Positions 44,792 through 50,557 of a DNA stretch of 64,000 bases are shown here, in pieces. Each line of letters starts with the position of its first letter. Position 1 is the first letter of the stretch. The notes under the pieces are model-generated. The model made no database searches and was not told where the DNA came from. It saw only the letters and a program-made list of their open reading frames with translations. This DNA is from a bacterium. GTDB taxonomy: Bacteria > Bacteroidota > Bacteroidia > Flavobacteriales_D > Crocinitomicaceae. Where the stretch lies: contig JANSYQ010000012.1 in assembly GCA_024742305.1 (NCBI GenBank), forward strand, positions 1 through 64,000, read 5' to 3'. Both the position numbers and the translations under genes were made by a program.

Positions 44792-44977
44792 GTCAGTGGT
44801 AAAGCGAAATCAGTGCCGAAGGCTCTAAAGCATTGTTTTACAAGACATAAACTTCTCGTCAAAAACTAAAAAGTCATCAATTTGAAATCGTTTGTTTTCA
44901 TTTTGAAAAAATTTAAAAAAAAATTCCAACCCTTTGAAAACTCGATACATCTACCCTTTGAACGAAACACAAAAACT

Positions 44978-45427
44978 ATGAGAAAGTTATTTTATTTACC
45001 AGTGATCCTAGTAGGAGCAACAATGCTGATTGCTTCTTGTAACAAGTACGACAACGGTGGAAGCAAAGCTCGTGCCGAGAAAAACATCAAAAAGACTTGG
45101 AAACTTGAGGCATATTACCTTGACGGAGTCGATCAAACGCAGAATCTGTTGATTAGTAACTTCATAGAAACTTTCAACGATGATGGTACCTACACGCGTA
45201 ATTACACGGATGGAAGTGGTGACCAGCAGGAAGACTTGGGCAATTGGGTATTAGACAACGAAAAGTCAACTATCAACGTTTCAGGAACGGGAAGCTATGA
45301 ATTGACCAATGAAACTTCGACGGTTTCGGCATCCGATTACATCATTCTCAAATTAAAGAAAGATGAGTTATGGTACCAGTTTACTAATGGTGGAAGCACA
45401 CACGAATTTCATCTAATACCCAATTAA
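44978..45427 (+). CDS. Lipocalin-like lipoprotein
   Basis: 149 aa from the ATG at 44978. MLIASCNKYD is a lipobox. The mature part has the lipocalin-like pattern of small Bacteroidota lipoproteins: KTWKLEAYYLDGVDQT at the start, then FNDDGTYTRNY, GNWVLDNEKSTINV and LWYQFTNGGSTHEFHL, all short beta strands. The ligand is unknown. It is the first of two lipoprotein genes leading into the sigma/anti-sigma pair. Confidence 0.78.
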   Translation: MRKLFYLPVILVGATMLIASCNKYDNGGSKARAEKNIKKTWKLEAYYLDGVDQTQNLLISNFIETFNDDGTYTRNYTDGSGDQQEDLGNWVLDNEKSTINVSGTGSYELTNETSTVSASDYIILKLKKDELWYQFTNGGSTHEFHLIPN

Positions 45428-45525
45428 AAAGGAGTCAAAACAATGAGAATTCCTAAATTGAGGTTTATTCGACGGGCGCACTCCAGCAAAAGAAGCGTTT
45501 GTGTAGAAAAAGTAATTTTTTGAAT

Positions 45526-46206
45526 ATGAAACGGAAATGGCTACTTCTTGTAATGCTAATTGCGGTAACCGCTTGTAAAAAGCAGCAATTAAAGCAACCA
45601 ACAGATGTTTCCTTTAGCGTAGACATCAATCGAAATGCTAGTAATAATGGGAATTTGATATTTGAAAGTGGATACATCCTCCTGTCTTCCTTTGATGTAG
45701 AAGGTGAAAGACAGGAAGGTGATCCGATTGCCTTTTCGCGCAGCTTTTCGAACGGATTACTCGTTAATTTTGACGCTACTGGCGTTATAGGCGACCTGAA
45801 CTTCGATATCCCCCAAGGCGTGTACACGGAATTGAGGGTTCGATTTGCCACTTTCGATGATAACGGCGACGCGACCATTACAGTGAATGGTTCGTTTACC
45901 AACAGCCAGGGAACCGATGTTCCAATCCGTTTTGAGTTCATGTCCTCTGAAACTTTTGAGATTAGTGGTGAAGACGACGTAAACTCCGGTGTCGTAGTAT
46001 TGGACGCCGATATGCCTTCCAGTGCAATTATTCGACTCGACCCTATTTATTGGTTCGATATTCTAACAACCAATCAGTTGGAAAATGCCAACTTGGTTGA
46101 TGTTAATGGTGTTCAAACCATACTAATCAACGAGAGCAATAACGATAACCTGTACGATTTACTTGCCGATCGTGTTGATGAATCGACTGAAGCCGTTTTT
46201 AATTAG
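45526..46206 (+). CDS. Hypothetical lipoprotein upstream of the ECF sigma factor
   Basis: 226 aa from the ATG at 45526. LIAVTACKKQQ is a lipobox with Cys17. The mature protein is acidic and beta-rich (SFSVDINRN, TELRVRFATFDDNGDATITVNG, PIRFEFMSSETFEI), probably a beta-sandwich. I recognise no family with confidence. Its TAG stop at 46204-46206 is directly followed by the sigma-factor frame, so it is almost certainly in the same operon and may be involved in the same signal. Confidence 0.72.
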   Translation: MKRKWLLLVMLIAVTACKKQQLKQPTDVSFSVDINRNASNNGNLIFESGYILLSSFDVEGERQEGDPIAFSRSFSNGLLVNFDATGVIGDLNFDIPQGVYTELRVRFATFDDNGDATITVNGSFTNSQGTDVPIRFEFMSSETFEISGEDDVNSGVVVLDADMPSSAIIRLDPIYWFDILTTNQLENANLVDVNGVQTILINESNNDNLYDLLADRVDESTEAVFN

Positions 46207-46208
46207 TC

Positions 46209-46757
46209 ATCGAAAACTATACTAACATATCGGATGAAGAGCTTGTAAGCGCCTGTCTCAATAATGTTCGAGAAGCTCAGGAAGCGTTTTATCGAAAGTT
46301 TGCCGATAAAATGTTCTCCGTTTGCAAGTACTATGCAGAGGACCGAGACGAAGCGTGCGACTTTCTTCAGGAAGGTTTCATTACGGTTTTCCGTAAACTT
46401 GATCGATACAATTTCGAAGGCTCGCTTGAAGGTTGGATTCGTAGAATCGTTGTAAATACTGCACTCCAAGAAATACGCAAGAAGAAAGTATTTCAGGAGC
46501 ATTACAACTTGATCAAAATTGAACAGGAAGAGCTTTACAAAGAAGATGTTAGTACCTCTGAGCTGAATCCTAAAGACATTATTCAATGGGTAAATGAACT
46601 TCCGAAAAAAGCAGGGTTGATCATGAAACTCTATGCGATTGAAGGATATACACATCCTGAAATCGCGGAGATACTAGACGTTAGCGTCGGTACTTCAAAA
46701 TCTCAATTGAACAGAGCTAGAGCTCTATTAAAAGCAAAAATGAACGCGCAAGGATGA
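46209..46757 (+). CDS. ECF RNA polymerase sigma factor with non-standard start
   Basis: The track gives 148 aa from ATG 46311, but the conserved sigma region 2 begins before it. Reading back in frame gives (I)ENYTNISDEELVSACLNN and AFYRKFADKMFSVC, typical of ECF N-termini, until a TAA at 46200. There is no ATG, GTG or TTG between 46203 and 46311, so I set the start at ATC 46209 (182 aa); ATA 46227 is the alternative. Region 2 includes DEACDFLQEGFITVFRKLD, and region 4 includes HPEIAEILDVSVGTSKSQLNRARALL, a helix-turn-helix. Its last codons overlap the anti-sigma start (ATGA). Confidence 0.85.
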   Translation: MENYTNISDEELVSACLNNVREAQEAFYRKFADKMFSVCKYYAEDRDEACDFLQEGFITVFRKLDRYNFEGSLEGWIRRIVVNTALQEIRKKKVFQEHYNLIKIEQEELYKEDVSTSELNPKDIIQWVNELPKKAGLIMKLYAIEGYTHPEIAEILDVSVGTSKSQLNRARALLKAKMNAQG

Positions 46758-48001
46758 GCGAAGATTTGGACCATATCGTTAATGATGCGTTTGAAAACGC
46801 AGGTTCAAAGGACCGTGCTCCAGAAATGGCGTGGTCGGCCATCAGCTATGAATTGTCTCGCAGTAAAGTCGATACCGCAGTAAAGGAAAGCTTTGAAGGA
46901 CAACAGGACACCGCGCCGGAAATGGTTTGGGAACGAGTTCAGGATCAATTGGACATCGATCGCGTTTGGACACGCATCATGGGAAGAATTTACATTCAGA
47001 AACGCTTCCACTTCCTCCGATACGCCGCCGTTCTATTGATACTGTTGCTTCCCTTTCATCTAGACTTCGATTTCTTTGAATCGAACAGTGCAGAGGGAAG
47101 CGTGAGCCATCCCCATGTATCCACAGCGCCCGTGCAGCGCAATACCAATTCTAAAGAGTTCGTCCAACCGACGAACGCAACAGAAACTTCTGCGCAGAAC
47201 GCTTCGGTAAAAAACGTGTTGCCCTCTCCTACTCCCATTGAGGATATAACTTCGGACAACGGAGATGACTTGGCAACGAACAATACTCTGAAAAGATTCC
47301 AAGCGCTCCCTGGTACCTTGGCACTTGCTACATTGGAGCCGCATCGAGAAGACTTTTCAATTCCTTCATTTGAGCAGCCAAAGCCACAGCACTCTCTTGG
47401 TTTGACAATCGGAGGAATTTCTTCCTTAGAGAATACATGGATTTTGGATAATGAAACACGCGAAGGTTTTGATTCTGAGTCGCTGGTAGAGAATGAAATT
47501 GCCTTAGGGGCGAGTTACGGCGTTTTTGCGGAGTACCAGTTACGGCCGAGGCTGGCAATTACAGCTGAGTACTTATTTCAATCGCGAACGAATCAACGCA
47601 CGAATTACTACAACCATGGTACTTATACGAATAAAGTGCGTGAGATCAATCATTCCAAGTTAAGTTTGCTGCTTGGCTGGAATTCGCAACCGCATTACTT
47701 TGGCGTATCGCATAGCACAGTAGCACGATTGGGTGCTTACTATTCACGCGTGAAAAGCGATTATACCTATAACAATGGATTCCTTACAGACATAAATAGT
47801 GTGTACCAAAGAAGTGATGCTGGTTTGCGCATGGAGTTAGGGAAACGAATCTATTGGAAATCCCTCCAATTTGAAGGTGGATTGGTTGCTAATTATGGGA
47901 TGATCAATCTTGCTTCATCGAAGAGCTACATTCCGTCACACTTGAATTTCACACGACTGGTTTCTGGAGGACTTTACTTACGTGCTGGATATACGCTTTA
48001 A
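46754..48001 (+). CDS. Dual-membrane-spanning anti-sigma factor (cytosolic domain, TM helix, OM beta-barrel)
   Basis: 415 aa. Residues 1-84 are a soluble, acidic region with two repeats of APEM-x-W-x(6)-L (22-34 and 54-66), the expected sigma-binding part. One membrane helix follows (about 87-104, LRYAAVLLILLLPFHLDF). Residues 108-210 are Ser/Thr/Asn/Pro-rich and probably disordered. Residues 212-415 look like an eight-stranded outer-membrane barrel with alternating strands (GASYGVFAEYQLRPRLAITAEYLF, GGLYLRAGYTL), ending in a hydrophobic residue as barrel proteins do. From memory, such dual-membrane anti-sigma factors (Dma) were described in Bacteroides thetaiotaomicron. The start overlaps the sigma stop. 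Confidence 0.85.
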   Translation: MSEDLDHIVNDAFENAGSKDRAPEMAWSAISYELSRSKVDTAVKESFEGQQDTAPEMVWERVQDQLDIDRVWTRIMGRIYIQKRFHFLRYAAVLLILLLPFHLDFDFFESNSAEGSVSHPHVSTAPVQRNTNSKEFVQPTNATETSAQNASVKNVLPSPTPIEDITSDNGDDLATNNTLKRFQALPGTLALATLEPHREDFSIPSFEQPKPQHSLGLTIGGISSLENTWILDNETREGFDSESLVENEIALGASYGVFAEYQLRPRLAITAEYLFQSRTNQRTNYYNHGTYTNKVREINHSKLSLLLGWNSQPHYFGVSHSTVARLGAYYSRVKSDYTYNNGFLTDINSVYQRSDAGLRMELGKRIYWKSLQFEGGLVANYGMINLASSKSYIPSHLNFTRLVSGGLYLRAGYTL

Positions 48002-48011
48002 ACTTCAGCCA

Positions 48012-48920
48012 TCACTCCCAAACAAGTATTTGTCGATGACACTGGTTCCATCCAGCACTTAGTGTACCCGATAGTGCTCTCCATCTAACTTTCACTTCGT
48101 GCTGACCAGCAGAAAGTTGCTCAATACACTTTAAATTGACTTGCTTTACATCAGAAATACTAACATACTGAACAATAACCAAGTCAGTCTGAACGCCATC
48201 AACTATGAGTTCATAGTGTCCTACCGCTCCAGTTGAACTATTATAAGTACCCGGAATACTGGCTTGGATCATGACTGGTGAGTTCCCGGAAGTAAAGTTT
48301 GTCGTCATTCCTGCCATATCCGTAAAACTACTCGATGAAGTTTGAGTAGATGTATAGGTGCCGACACTATATCTAGTGCCAGTCGTAGTATCTAAAGGCA
48401 ATGTAACTGTATTACCTCCAGTACCAGATATTGAGAGATCAAGACCATTCAGTGACAAAGTCTGGATCTCATTCAAAGTATCAGAGTCAGCATCGTTAAC
48501 ATTGTCAATAATTGCAGATTCCGCTACTTTTGAATGAAGCGAATAAGGAACAGATAGAAACTCTGATGAACCAAATAAAACATAATTAGTACCACCATTT
48601 AAGTCAAGTAAGGTTTCTAAAAAGTAAGGCCCGTTTGACCAATCGATGCTACTGAAGATAAATTGTGAATTGCCTGTACCAATACTTAAATCAATCAACC
48701 CATAGGCATTACTAACGGTTGTAAAAGTCTCAGAGTATTCTATTGGTCCTATTGTGCTTCCCTGTCGAATGATAAATTGTACGCCCAAAGTTGAATTTGC
48801 AACTATTTGGTTATTAGCGTCTCGAATAACTGCTTGATATTTAAATGCCTCAGGCGATTGAGCGACTGAGAAATTTGAAAAGCTTACTAGCAATAGGATG
48901 CAGAGTGTGAATCGATTCAT
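48012..48920 (-). CDS. Hypothetical secreted beta-rich protein
   Basis: 302 aa with a signal peptide to about residue 20 (NFSVAQ). The N-terminal SPEAFKYQAVIRDANNQIVANSTLGVQFII followed by FTTVSNAYGLIDLSIGTG is a pattern seen repeatedly in Bacteroidota surface proteins, which are often annotated only as hypothetical. A middle Gly/Thr/Ser-rich part is followed by a C-terminal beta sandwich (HYELIVDGVQTDLVIVQYV, QHEVKVRWRALSG). No type IX secretion tail is seen. Function unknown; it converges on the anti-sigma gene. Confidence 0.75.
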   Translation of the reverse strand: MNRFTLCILLLVSFSNFSVAQSPEAFKYQAVIRDANNQIVANSTLGVQFIIRQGSTIGPIEYSETFTTVSNAYGLIDLSIGTGNSQFIFSSIDWSNGPYFLETLLDLNGGTNYVLFGSSEFLSVPYSLHSKVAESAIIDNVNDADSDTLNEIQTLSLNGLDLSISGTGGNTVTLPLDTTTGTRYSVGTYTSTQTSSSSFTDMAGMTTNFTSGNSPVMIQASIPGTYNSSTGAVGHYELIVDGVQTDLVIVQYVSISDVKQVNLKCIEQLSAGQHEVKVRWRALSGTLSAGWNQCHRQILVWE

Positions 48921-49145: not shown

Positions 49146-49802
49146 CTAATTGATTTTCCACGCAAGGTCCAATCCGAAAATGTGAAAACGATCGTTTGAT
49201 TTTTTGTTGAATTCCTGTTCCAGTCGGTAAAAAGTTCGAACATCCACTCTTTTATTGATGCGCCAGGTCAATCCAGTGTTGAAACGCCATATTCTAAACT
49301 CGTTCCTGCGATCAAGACGATAGAATATCTCTCCTGCGATAAAAGGATCTACCAATTTACTAGCATTATACTCAAACGACAATTTGTTTCTTAGATAGGA
49401 CTTGCGGCGATCACCGTCAAAAGGTGACCTGTTTTGATAGCGCAAGCGGTTCTTTACACGCAACGGAAATTTTTTCTTATCCCAGCTATAATTCAAATCT
49501 GCTGAAATTCTCCCATGGTTGTCATCATTTGGAACAAAGGTATATCTGTATGTCGGAGTAAACGAAAATCTCTTATTCATTTTCCATCTCCAACCGAATG
49601 CCGTAAAGGTATTTTTCACTGAGGAAATCCTGTCATCAAATCGAACTTGTTGCTCGAGTTCCAACCTATGCTTTTTCGCTACTTTGTACGTTACGCTTAC
49701 ACCCGACCACAACTCGTAATCTGTAGTTTGAGAGATTGCGGAAAAGGGATAAAGAATAATTCCAACAAAGAAAATTGACAAAGAGAGGTGACGTGCTTTC
49801 AT
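49146..49802 (-). CDS. DUF2490 outer-membrane beta-barrel protein
   Basis: 218 aa with a signal peptide ending near residue 24 (FSAISQ). DUF2490 is recognisable by ELWSGVSVTYKVAKKHRLELEQQVRFDD at the N-terminus. Strands rich in Arg and aromatic residues follow (RFSFTPTYRYTFVP, FPLRVKNRLRYQNRSPF, RRNEFRIWRFNTGLTWRI), ending in GLDLAWKIN. This fits a barrel of about ten strands in the outer membrane. The family has no defined function. Confidence 0.85.
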   Translation of the reverse strand: MKARHLSLSIFFVGIILYPFSAISQTTDYELWSGVSVTYKVAKKHRLELEQQVRFDDRISSVKNTFTAFGWRWKMNKRFSFTPTYRYTFVPNDDNHGRISADLNYSWDKKKFPLRVKNRLRYQNRSPFDGDRRKSYLRNKLSFEYNASKLVDPFIAGEIFYRLDRRNEFRIWRFNTGLTWRINKRVDVRTFYRLEQEFNKKSNDRFHIFGLDLAWKIN

Positions 49803-49879
49803 GCGTTACTAATTTACAATTGAACCAATGTATGTATAAGATGTCTACGAAAGGAAACGGTTGGAAAATGCCGAGGAAA

Positions 49880-49948: not shown

Positions 49949-50392
49949 TTAATCCACAGGGCTCAAAGAGTAACTTCCATCTCCGTTGAAGTCAGTGAGA
50001 ATAATAGAAACTTTCCACATCCCCTTCTTCCCTTCTTCAGAAACTCCTGCGAAAGTATCGTTTCCGCCTGCAGAACGTGTTGCATTCAATACTTCGTTAC
50101 CACGAGCGTCATAAACAATCATTTGCACAGATCCTGAACTTGTGGTGATATCAAAGTTTACTTGGGCCTTACTTTTCGTGTTATCCCAAGCAAATGAATA
50201 TTCACCTGTATCACCATTTCCCGTAAAGTCTCCGGCAGGATCACTTCCTGTTGAAGTTACAAGAACCGCACCAGAATAGGTATTGTCAATCACTTCATTG
50301 TTATCATATTTTCGGTACTTCTGACAAGATGTAAAAGCCAAAAGTCCAACAAGTGCCAGTGAGAACGTAAGTAATTTCATTGCTTTTTTCAT
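49949..50392 (-). CDS. Hypothetical lipoprotein
   Basis: 147 aa. GLLAFTSCQKY is a lipobox (Cys23). The mature part is beta-rich with GEYSFAWDNTKSKAQVNFDITTSSGSVQMIVYDARGNEVLNATRS, resembling a small C-terminal-type sandwich domain. No family is recognised. It lies between DUF2490 and a NarL-type regulator, and has its own terminator. Confidence 0.7.
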   Translation of the reverse strand: MKKAMKLLTFSLALVGLLAFTSCQKYRKYDNNEVIDNTYSGAVLVTSTGSDPAGDFTGNGDTGEYSFAWDNTKSKAQVNFDITTSSGSVQMIVYDARGNEVLNATRSAGGNDTFAGVSEEGKKGMWKVSIILTDFNGDGSYSLSPVD

Positions 50393-50557
50393 AATTCCAT
50401 TTTTGATTTACACTGAGAAGATGAGGTGAAACTTTCTAGGGTTGGAAATCGAACTATAAAATAGATTTATGAAACGAATAAGCTGAAATGGAATAAGAAA
50501 GGGAACAACCTTGACACCTCTCAAAGACGGCAAGATCTAGAATATAATCGTAAGAAA

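Follow-up and report, generated by a model that had tools for sequence, protein, structure and literature searches.

A probable dual-membrane anti-sigma factor of the Dma/Reo type and its linked lipoprotein in the Crocinitomicaceae

A 415-amino-acid protein encoded in a 64,000-nucleotide stretch of a Crocinitomicaceae genome (the whole of this stretch is hereafter the window) is very probably a dual-membrane anti-sigma factor of the Dma/Reo type, as judged by comparing its architecture, gene neighbor, phylum, and tether with published descriptions. Dual-membrane anti-sigma factors as such are already known in gut Bacteroides and Phocaeicola; what looks new is a fixed lipoprotein partner and a predicted set of controlled genes. 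We propose that the protein acts as a leash of the Dma/Reo type, with lipoprotein-linked release of the sigma factor and an autoregulated envelope regulon, and we place the probability of this model as a whole at roughly two in three.

Architecture of the probable anti-sigma factor

The sigma factor gene, the gene for the 415-aa protein (here called Dma), and the parts of the latter are arranged as follows.

46209-46757, + strand: ECF sigma factor with regions 2 and 4 (Pfam PF04542 and PF08281); probable start ATC at 46209
46754-48001, + strand: probable Dma/Reo-type anti-sigma factor, 415 aa, ATG start
46754-47005, + strand: residues 1-84 of the 415-aa protein, helical repeats, predicted cytoplasmic
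47012-47062, + strand: residues 87-103 of the same protein, transmembrane (TM) segment
residues 104-213 of the same protein, + strand: disordered tether
47402-47995, + strand: residues 217-414 of the same protein, predicted barrel

A sequence-only reading of this DNA had described a single chain with a cytosolic region of about 84 residues bearing two APEM-x-W motifs, one hydrophobic helix, a disordered linker, and a terminal outer-membrane barrel, encoded by a gene overlapping that of an ECF sigma factor by ATGA, and this outline stands. The start codon overlaps the stop of the sigma gene (TGA, 46755-46757), and the two motifs are present as APEMAW (residues 22-27) and APEMVW (residues 54-59). 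The helix corresponds to residues 87-103, the sole strong hydrophobic segment of the protein, whose flanks carry a net charge of +4 on the N-terminal and -4 on the C-terminal side, i.e., an N-in/C-out pattern by the positive-inside rule. An AlphaFold2 model, computed from an alignment of ten divergent sequences, has helices over residues 4-98 at low confidence (pLDDT about 50), disorder over residues 98-213 (pLDDT about 30), and eight long strands over residues 217-414, where pLDDT is mostly 72-94 with dips to ~49-67 at loops. The linker is indeed disordered, with 75% disorder-promoting residues, but its length, given earlier as ~100 aa, is nearer 110. The anticipated barrel of ~200 aa with a hydrophobic end is borne out both by the strands and by its best Foldseek matches, namely, OmpA, OprG, Ail, OmpW, OmpX, and NspA (E down to 1e-8), and the last residue of the chain is Leu. 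Structure prediction had been put forward as a check that could have returned no barrel; what it returned is a helix, a disordered tether, and an eight-stranded barrel.

Pfam searches with the 415-aa protein yield only weak, sub-cut-off matches to OMP_b-brl (E 0.001). An anti-sigma factor of the FecR type was dropped from consideration because Pfam finds neither a FecR domain nor a TonB-receptor match in the protein. The ZAS/RseA type was likewise dropped, because the entire chain is devoid of cysteine, and so of an HxxxCxxC motif, and no RseA or zinc-finger anti-sigma domain is found by Pfam.

The sigma factor shows 34-55% identity in an alignment with 12 relatives. Membership in class ECF21 would be expected of a Dma/Reo sigma factor; among the best 25 NCBIfam matches of the one described here, only the generic ECF superfamily scores above the cut-off. 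Its gene has an odd start: from the in-frame stop at 46200 to position 46311 on the + strand, ATG, GTG, and TTG are all absent, and the start methionine of the relatives aligns to the ATC at 46209, where the conserved N-terminus begins. Either an unusual start codon or an error in sequencing may account for this ATC, which does not affect the main conclusion. The sigma genes of four relatives (L159-L162) start with GTG or TTG.

Conservation of the chain and of its pairing with the sigma factor

Among 100 genomes of Crocinitomicaceae, a single-sequence search found the 415-aa protein in 14, and a profile search of Dma gave matches in 24. Across the phylum, the same profile returned only weak matches outside the family, so that the prevalence of Dma there is a lower bound. 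A scan of named genomes for further loci, using the sigma factor alignment as query, added loci in Aureispira, Saprospiraceae, Marinilabiliaceae, Carboxylicivirga, and Bacteroidales MAGs. The relatives share 21-29% identity with the window protein, pointing to fast evolution, and all full-length ones retain the same order of parts in one ORF at this level of divergence, which argues that the architecture is not due to chance.

Conservation is unevenly distributed along the chain, with a mean pairwise identity of 31-32% in the N-terminus, 27-28% in the barrel, and 15-16% in the linker, whose estimated length ranges from about 103 to 204 aa across the lipoprotein-linked relatives. Thus, the length of the linker is kept while its sequence is not, as expected of a tether that crosses the periplasm. 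We regard it as likely that the protein spans both membranes unbroken in the cell. It could instead be made as one chain that is constitutively cut in the linker, so that an ordinary anti-sigma factor would stay in the inner membrane and the barrel would be a protein of its own in the outer membrane. Such a cut would suit a linker that is long, disordered, and unconserved, and one relative (L065:5537-6244) has the N-terminal repeats and TM segment without a barrel. However, the fusion is retained in every relative other than L065, and the estimated linker is never shorter than about 103 aa, although a protein that is cut would not need a crossing length; this renders constitutive cleavage improbable. 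A length of ~103 aa is near the minimum for crossing a periplasm of 20-30 nm. The barrel-less L065 protein is possibly an ancestor or a reduced form.

The N-terminus, the most conserved part of the Dma relatives, is built of a repeat of the form SFx..APxxxWxxhxxxL, present in one copy (L027, L034) to four copies (L003, L004). At every homologous locus examined, the sigma and Dma genes occur together; they always adjoin, mostly with an overlap or a gap of a few bases. We hold it highly probable that residues 1-84 bind the sigma factor, as predicted. That the protein is not an anti-sigma factor at all, its sigma neighbor being incidental, might be argued from the lack of any known Pfam anti-sigma domain in the N-terminal region; however, both the superior conservation of that very region and the invariant pairing run counter to such a view, which is exceedingly improbable.

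Several related proteins depart from the common form. Three loci of Saprospiraceae (L078, L090, and L092) encode anti-sigma-like proteins of 592-752 aa, with no lipoprotein and with an XTP pyrophosphatase-like gene upstream of the sigma gene; those of L078 and L090 have many N-terminal repeats, a TM segment, a linker, and a probable barrel. In the genome from which the window comes, another locus (L024, G000:C40:63747-67100) has an ECF sigma gene followed by a gene in which a similar short N-terminus and TM segment are fused to an extended stretch reminiscent of a von Willebrand type A domain. One sequence in the set (CP034120.1, L055), titled Glaciecola amylolytica, groups with the Fluviicola genome family, and its title looks wrong.

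A lipoprotein that travels with the sigma-Dma pair

Directly before the sigma gene lies a further gene, a conserved neighbor of the sigma-Dma pair.

45526-46206, + strand: partner lipoprotein, lipobox ..AVTAC

Sequence searches of Pfam, NCBIfam, and the PDB gave no match for this protein. Its AlphaFold2 model is confident (pLDDT 89, pTM 0.80), and no PDB fold matches the model at E < 0.001. A profile search for the lipoprotein located 25 places in 21 of the 100 Crocinitomicaceae genomes. A Dma profile match lies alongside at 22 of these, and inspection added two (G070 and G034), so that the sigma-Dma pair stands beside the lipoprotein at 24 of the 25 places, with G073 as the exception. Counted from the other side, the lipoprotein is present at each of the 19 distinct places where Dma matches at E <= 1e-9 (that in G094 by inspection); other genomes of the family gave weaker Dma matches (E 1e-6 to 1e-8). 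A second full lipoprotein-sigma-Dma copy occurs on contig 16 of the window's own genome (L023/L116). In other families, the sigma-only scan recovered the three genes in that order at 12 loci, and a thirteenth (L032) is reordered as sigma-lipoprotein-lipoprotein-Dma. A search of homologues for the same gene order, suggested at the outset, thus finds the trio maintained, and the neighboring lipoproteins that had been pointed out in passing are not incidental: one is this conserved partner, and two others have a predicted sigma-dependent promoter.

The linkage is a property of one branch, since barrel-bearing anti-sigma factors without the lipoprotein (L053, L078, L090, L092) exist alongside the barrel-less L065. 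The sequence-only reading had suggested that a surface change could reach the sigma factor with no distinct receptor; within that branch, the near constancy of the linkage implies that the barrel may not function alone. We judge the odds to be about even that the lipoprotein is a co-sensor rather than a mere product. It might otherwise be a regulon product only, envelope-protective like NigD in Bacteroides, and placed in the operon for autoregulation with no part in sensing. This reading, to which we give somewhat less than even odds, agrees with the presence of the same promoter motif before other lipoprotein genes near the locus, with the lipoprotein paralogues on either side of sigma in L032, each preceded by the motif, with stand-alone relatives of the lipoprotein elsewhere in the phylum, and with the surface lipoproteins that make up the P. 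vulgatus regulon (PMC13114119). It does not readily account for a partner that is found beside the sigma-Dma pair at nearly all family places while the other lipoproteins vary, or for its still adjoining Dma in L032 despite the changed gene order.

Promoter motif and predicted regulon

The upstream sequences of the lipoprotein-sigma-Dma operons have in common the motif TTCCAACC-N15/16-C[AG]NCTTA, an ECF-type motif written in shorter form as CCAACC-N15/16-C[AG]NCTT. ECF promoters usually carry AAC and CGTC-like elements, and the operon motif has both kinds. In a loose form, the motif is present in 17 of 24 operon upstream regions versus 0.08 expected from shuffles. In the window, the predicted promoters and the genes that they precede are the following.

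44924-44953, + strand: predicted ECF promoter TTCCAACC-N16-CATCTA, 25 nt before the lipocalin-like gene, predicted operon 44978-48001
44978-45427, + strand: lipocalin-like lipoprotein (PF13648), first gene of the predicted operon
49838-49864, - strand: predicted ECF promoter CCAACC-N15-CATCTT, 36 nt before the DUF2490 gene
49146-49802, - strand: DUF2490 outer-membrane protein (PF10677, E 3e-21), predicted regulon member by motif
50418-50445, - strand: predicted ECF promoter CCAACC-N16-CATCTT, 26 nt before the small lipoprotein gene
49949-50392, - strand: small lipoprotein, predicted regulon member by motif

The exact pattern is found twice in the window versus 0.11 expected, both times at this locus. 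A strong terminator (49925-49886, - strand) separates the small lipoprotein and DUF2490 genes, which would therefore each need their own promoter. Homologues of the small lipoprotein are encoded just downstream of Dma in relatives. Genome-wide, the exact motif is not enriched (12 matches versus 11 in a reversed control); hence, a genome-wide regulon drawn from the motif was rejected as too noisy, and only sites with conserved context are to be trusted. The only sites that look real are those adjoining this locus and a single other (L125/L163), a good copy 21 nt before the gene of a secreted protein of 233 aa that weakly matches OMP_b-brl (L163:1256-2005, G000:C42), which is likely a distant regulon member and probably forms a barrel. 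Taken together, the motif positions predict positive autoregulation with the anti-sigma factor in the loop and a small envelope regulon. The shared motif likewise predicts that loss of the anti-sigma factor would raise the operon and the envelope lipoproteins. Between Dma and the predicted regulon genes lies a gene for a secreted 302-aa protein (48012-48920, - strand), which weakly resembles, below the cut-off, the mosaic adhesive trimer family (NF053851).

In some relatives, a stretch of ~150-200 nt without a likely gene comes after the motif copy beside Dma and ends in a strong hairpin with a T-run. We consider these stretches to be candidate small RNAs beside the Dma gene, as listed here.

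L002:1301-1500: candidate small RNA
L003:1251-1480: candidate small RNA
L004:958-1200: candidate small RNA
L048:6874-7055: candidate small RNA
L055:6884-7065: candidate small RNA

The stretch is conserved, and its sequence in L048 and L055 differs from that in L002, L003, and L004. Rfam offers no credible match for the candidates or for the window, and the window itself showed no candidate of that kind. In E. coli, the sigma-E response has a small-RNA arm, which the predicted small RNA of the relatives would parallel.

Comparison with known systems

Dma1 and Dma2, with Das1 and Das2, were reportedly described in Bacteroides thetaiotaomicron by Pardue et al. in PNAS in 2024 (121:e2321910121), and EcfO-Reo, a system of Bacteroides fragilis and Phocaeicola vulgatus, is said to go back to work by Ndamukong in 2013. 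Published accounts give Dma an anti-sigma region, a TM helix, a long disordered tether, and a C-terminal barrel, and place the Dma operon among the targets of its own sigma factor, i.e., under autoregulation (PMC13088901, from 2026). In EcfO-Reo, the sigma gene is followed by that of an anti-sigma factor reaching from the cytoplasm to the outer surface, the regulon in P. vulgatus consists of surface lipoproteins (NigD), and the system is induced by the toxin BcpT (PMC9308784, PMC13114119) and also by Bd-A (PMC13114119). In these systems generally, loss of the anti-sigma factor raises expression of the operon, and envelope-active proteins are inducers (PMC13088901, PMC9308784, PMC13114119). The topology seen here fits the published descriptions of both Dma (PMC13088901) and Reo (PMC9308784, PMC13114119), so that the class membership proposed by the sequence-only reading was well placed, as was its suggestion of a flavobacterial member: the source organism belongs to the Crocinitomicaceae, outside Bacteroides, and the protein is of a divergent sequence type.

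The window locus resembles Dma1/Dma2 in the order of parts, the adjacent ECF sigma gene, its occurrence in Bacteroidota, and the (here predicted) targeting of the operon by its own sigma factor; unlike it, the Dma2 operon has DUF4943/DUF4858 genes (PMC13088901) in place of an upstream lipoprotein. With EcfO-Reo it shares the sigma gene followed by a dual-spanning anti-sigma factor and the lipoproteins in the (here predicted) regulon. However, no NigD domain was found in the lipoproteins at the window locus, and the EcfO-Reo papers (PMC9308784, PMC13114119) do not describe such a lipoprotein partner. An upstream lipoprotein partner is mentioned in neither the published Dma (PMC13088901) nor the Reo (PMC9308784, PMC13114119) accounts, and we therefore count the lipoprotein-linked system as a new variant.

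As in FecI-FecR, an ECF sigma factor would be controlled from the outer membrane; however, that system comprises three separate proteins with a FecR domain and a 22-strand TonB-dependent receptor, none of which is found at the window locus. A FecI/FecR pair is encoded at another place in the genome that contains the window (L025). In the Rcs envelope stress response, the lipoprotein RcsF acts with OmpA-type barrels. The resemblance to RcsF, in that a lipoprotein and an OmpA-type barrel would sense together at the outer membrane, is one of logic only, since Rcs works through IgaA and a phosphorelay and involves no anti-sigma factor covalently joined to the sensor.

Proposed mechanism

We propose that the repeats (residues 1-84) would keep the ECF sigma factor bound at the inner membrane, while the TM helix and a disordered tether of ~110 residues would join them to an OmpA-like eight-stranded barrel in the outer membrane. 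When the outer membrane is disturbed, a change perhaps sensed together with the co-encoded lipoprotein, the hold on the sigma factor would loosen; that the trigger may be outer-membrane stress is suggested by analogy with EcfO-Reo. The freed sigma factor would transcribe its own operon (lipocalin-like lipoprotein, partner lipoprotein, sigma, and anti-sigma) as well as nearby envelope genes from CCAACC-N15/16-C[AG]NCTT promoters, and newly made anti-sigma factor would close the loop.

The barrel might, however, serve as a sentinel of barrel assembly rather than as a surface receptor: failure of BAM or of chaperones would leave it unfolded in the periplasm, where attack by periplasmic and intramembrane proteases would free the sigma factor, and the tether need bear no force. 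The general logic of sigma-E/RseA fits this alternative, as does the ordinary eight-stranded type of the barrel in the Foldseek comparison. Moreover, the toxin that induces the P. vulgatus EcfO-Reo regulon elicits a response overlapping with the one to a BamA inhibitor (PMC9308784, PMC13114119). The periplasmic linker nonetheless has no conserved cleavage-like element (15-16% identity), and the constant lipoprotein partner would be left unexplained; we consider the sentinel role less likely than not. As an extension of the leash model, we tentatively picture a two-part outer-membrane sensor, itself on the doubtful side, in which the lipoprotein docks on or threads the tethered OmpA-like barrel. 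Its presence or absence (e.g., upon failed lipoprotein traffic or toxin action) would be relayed along one chain to the sigma factor, which would make more lipoprotein and, in some relatives, a small RNA. If true, such a circuit would run directly from outside to inside, unlike RseA, FecR, or Rcs.

What the Dma/Reo proteins sense was left open in the papers describing them (PMC13088901, PMC9308784, PMC13114119). A lipoprotein encoded almost constantly beside one branch of Dma provides a concrete candidate for a sensing partner, and the promoter motif supplies a ready reporter and a target list. More generally, the presence of the system in Flavobacteriales and in non-gut Bacteroidales indicates that it is not only a specialization to the gut.
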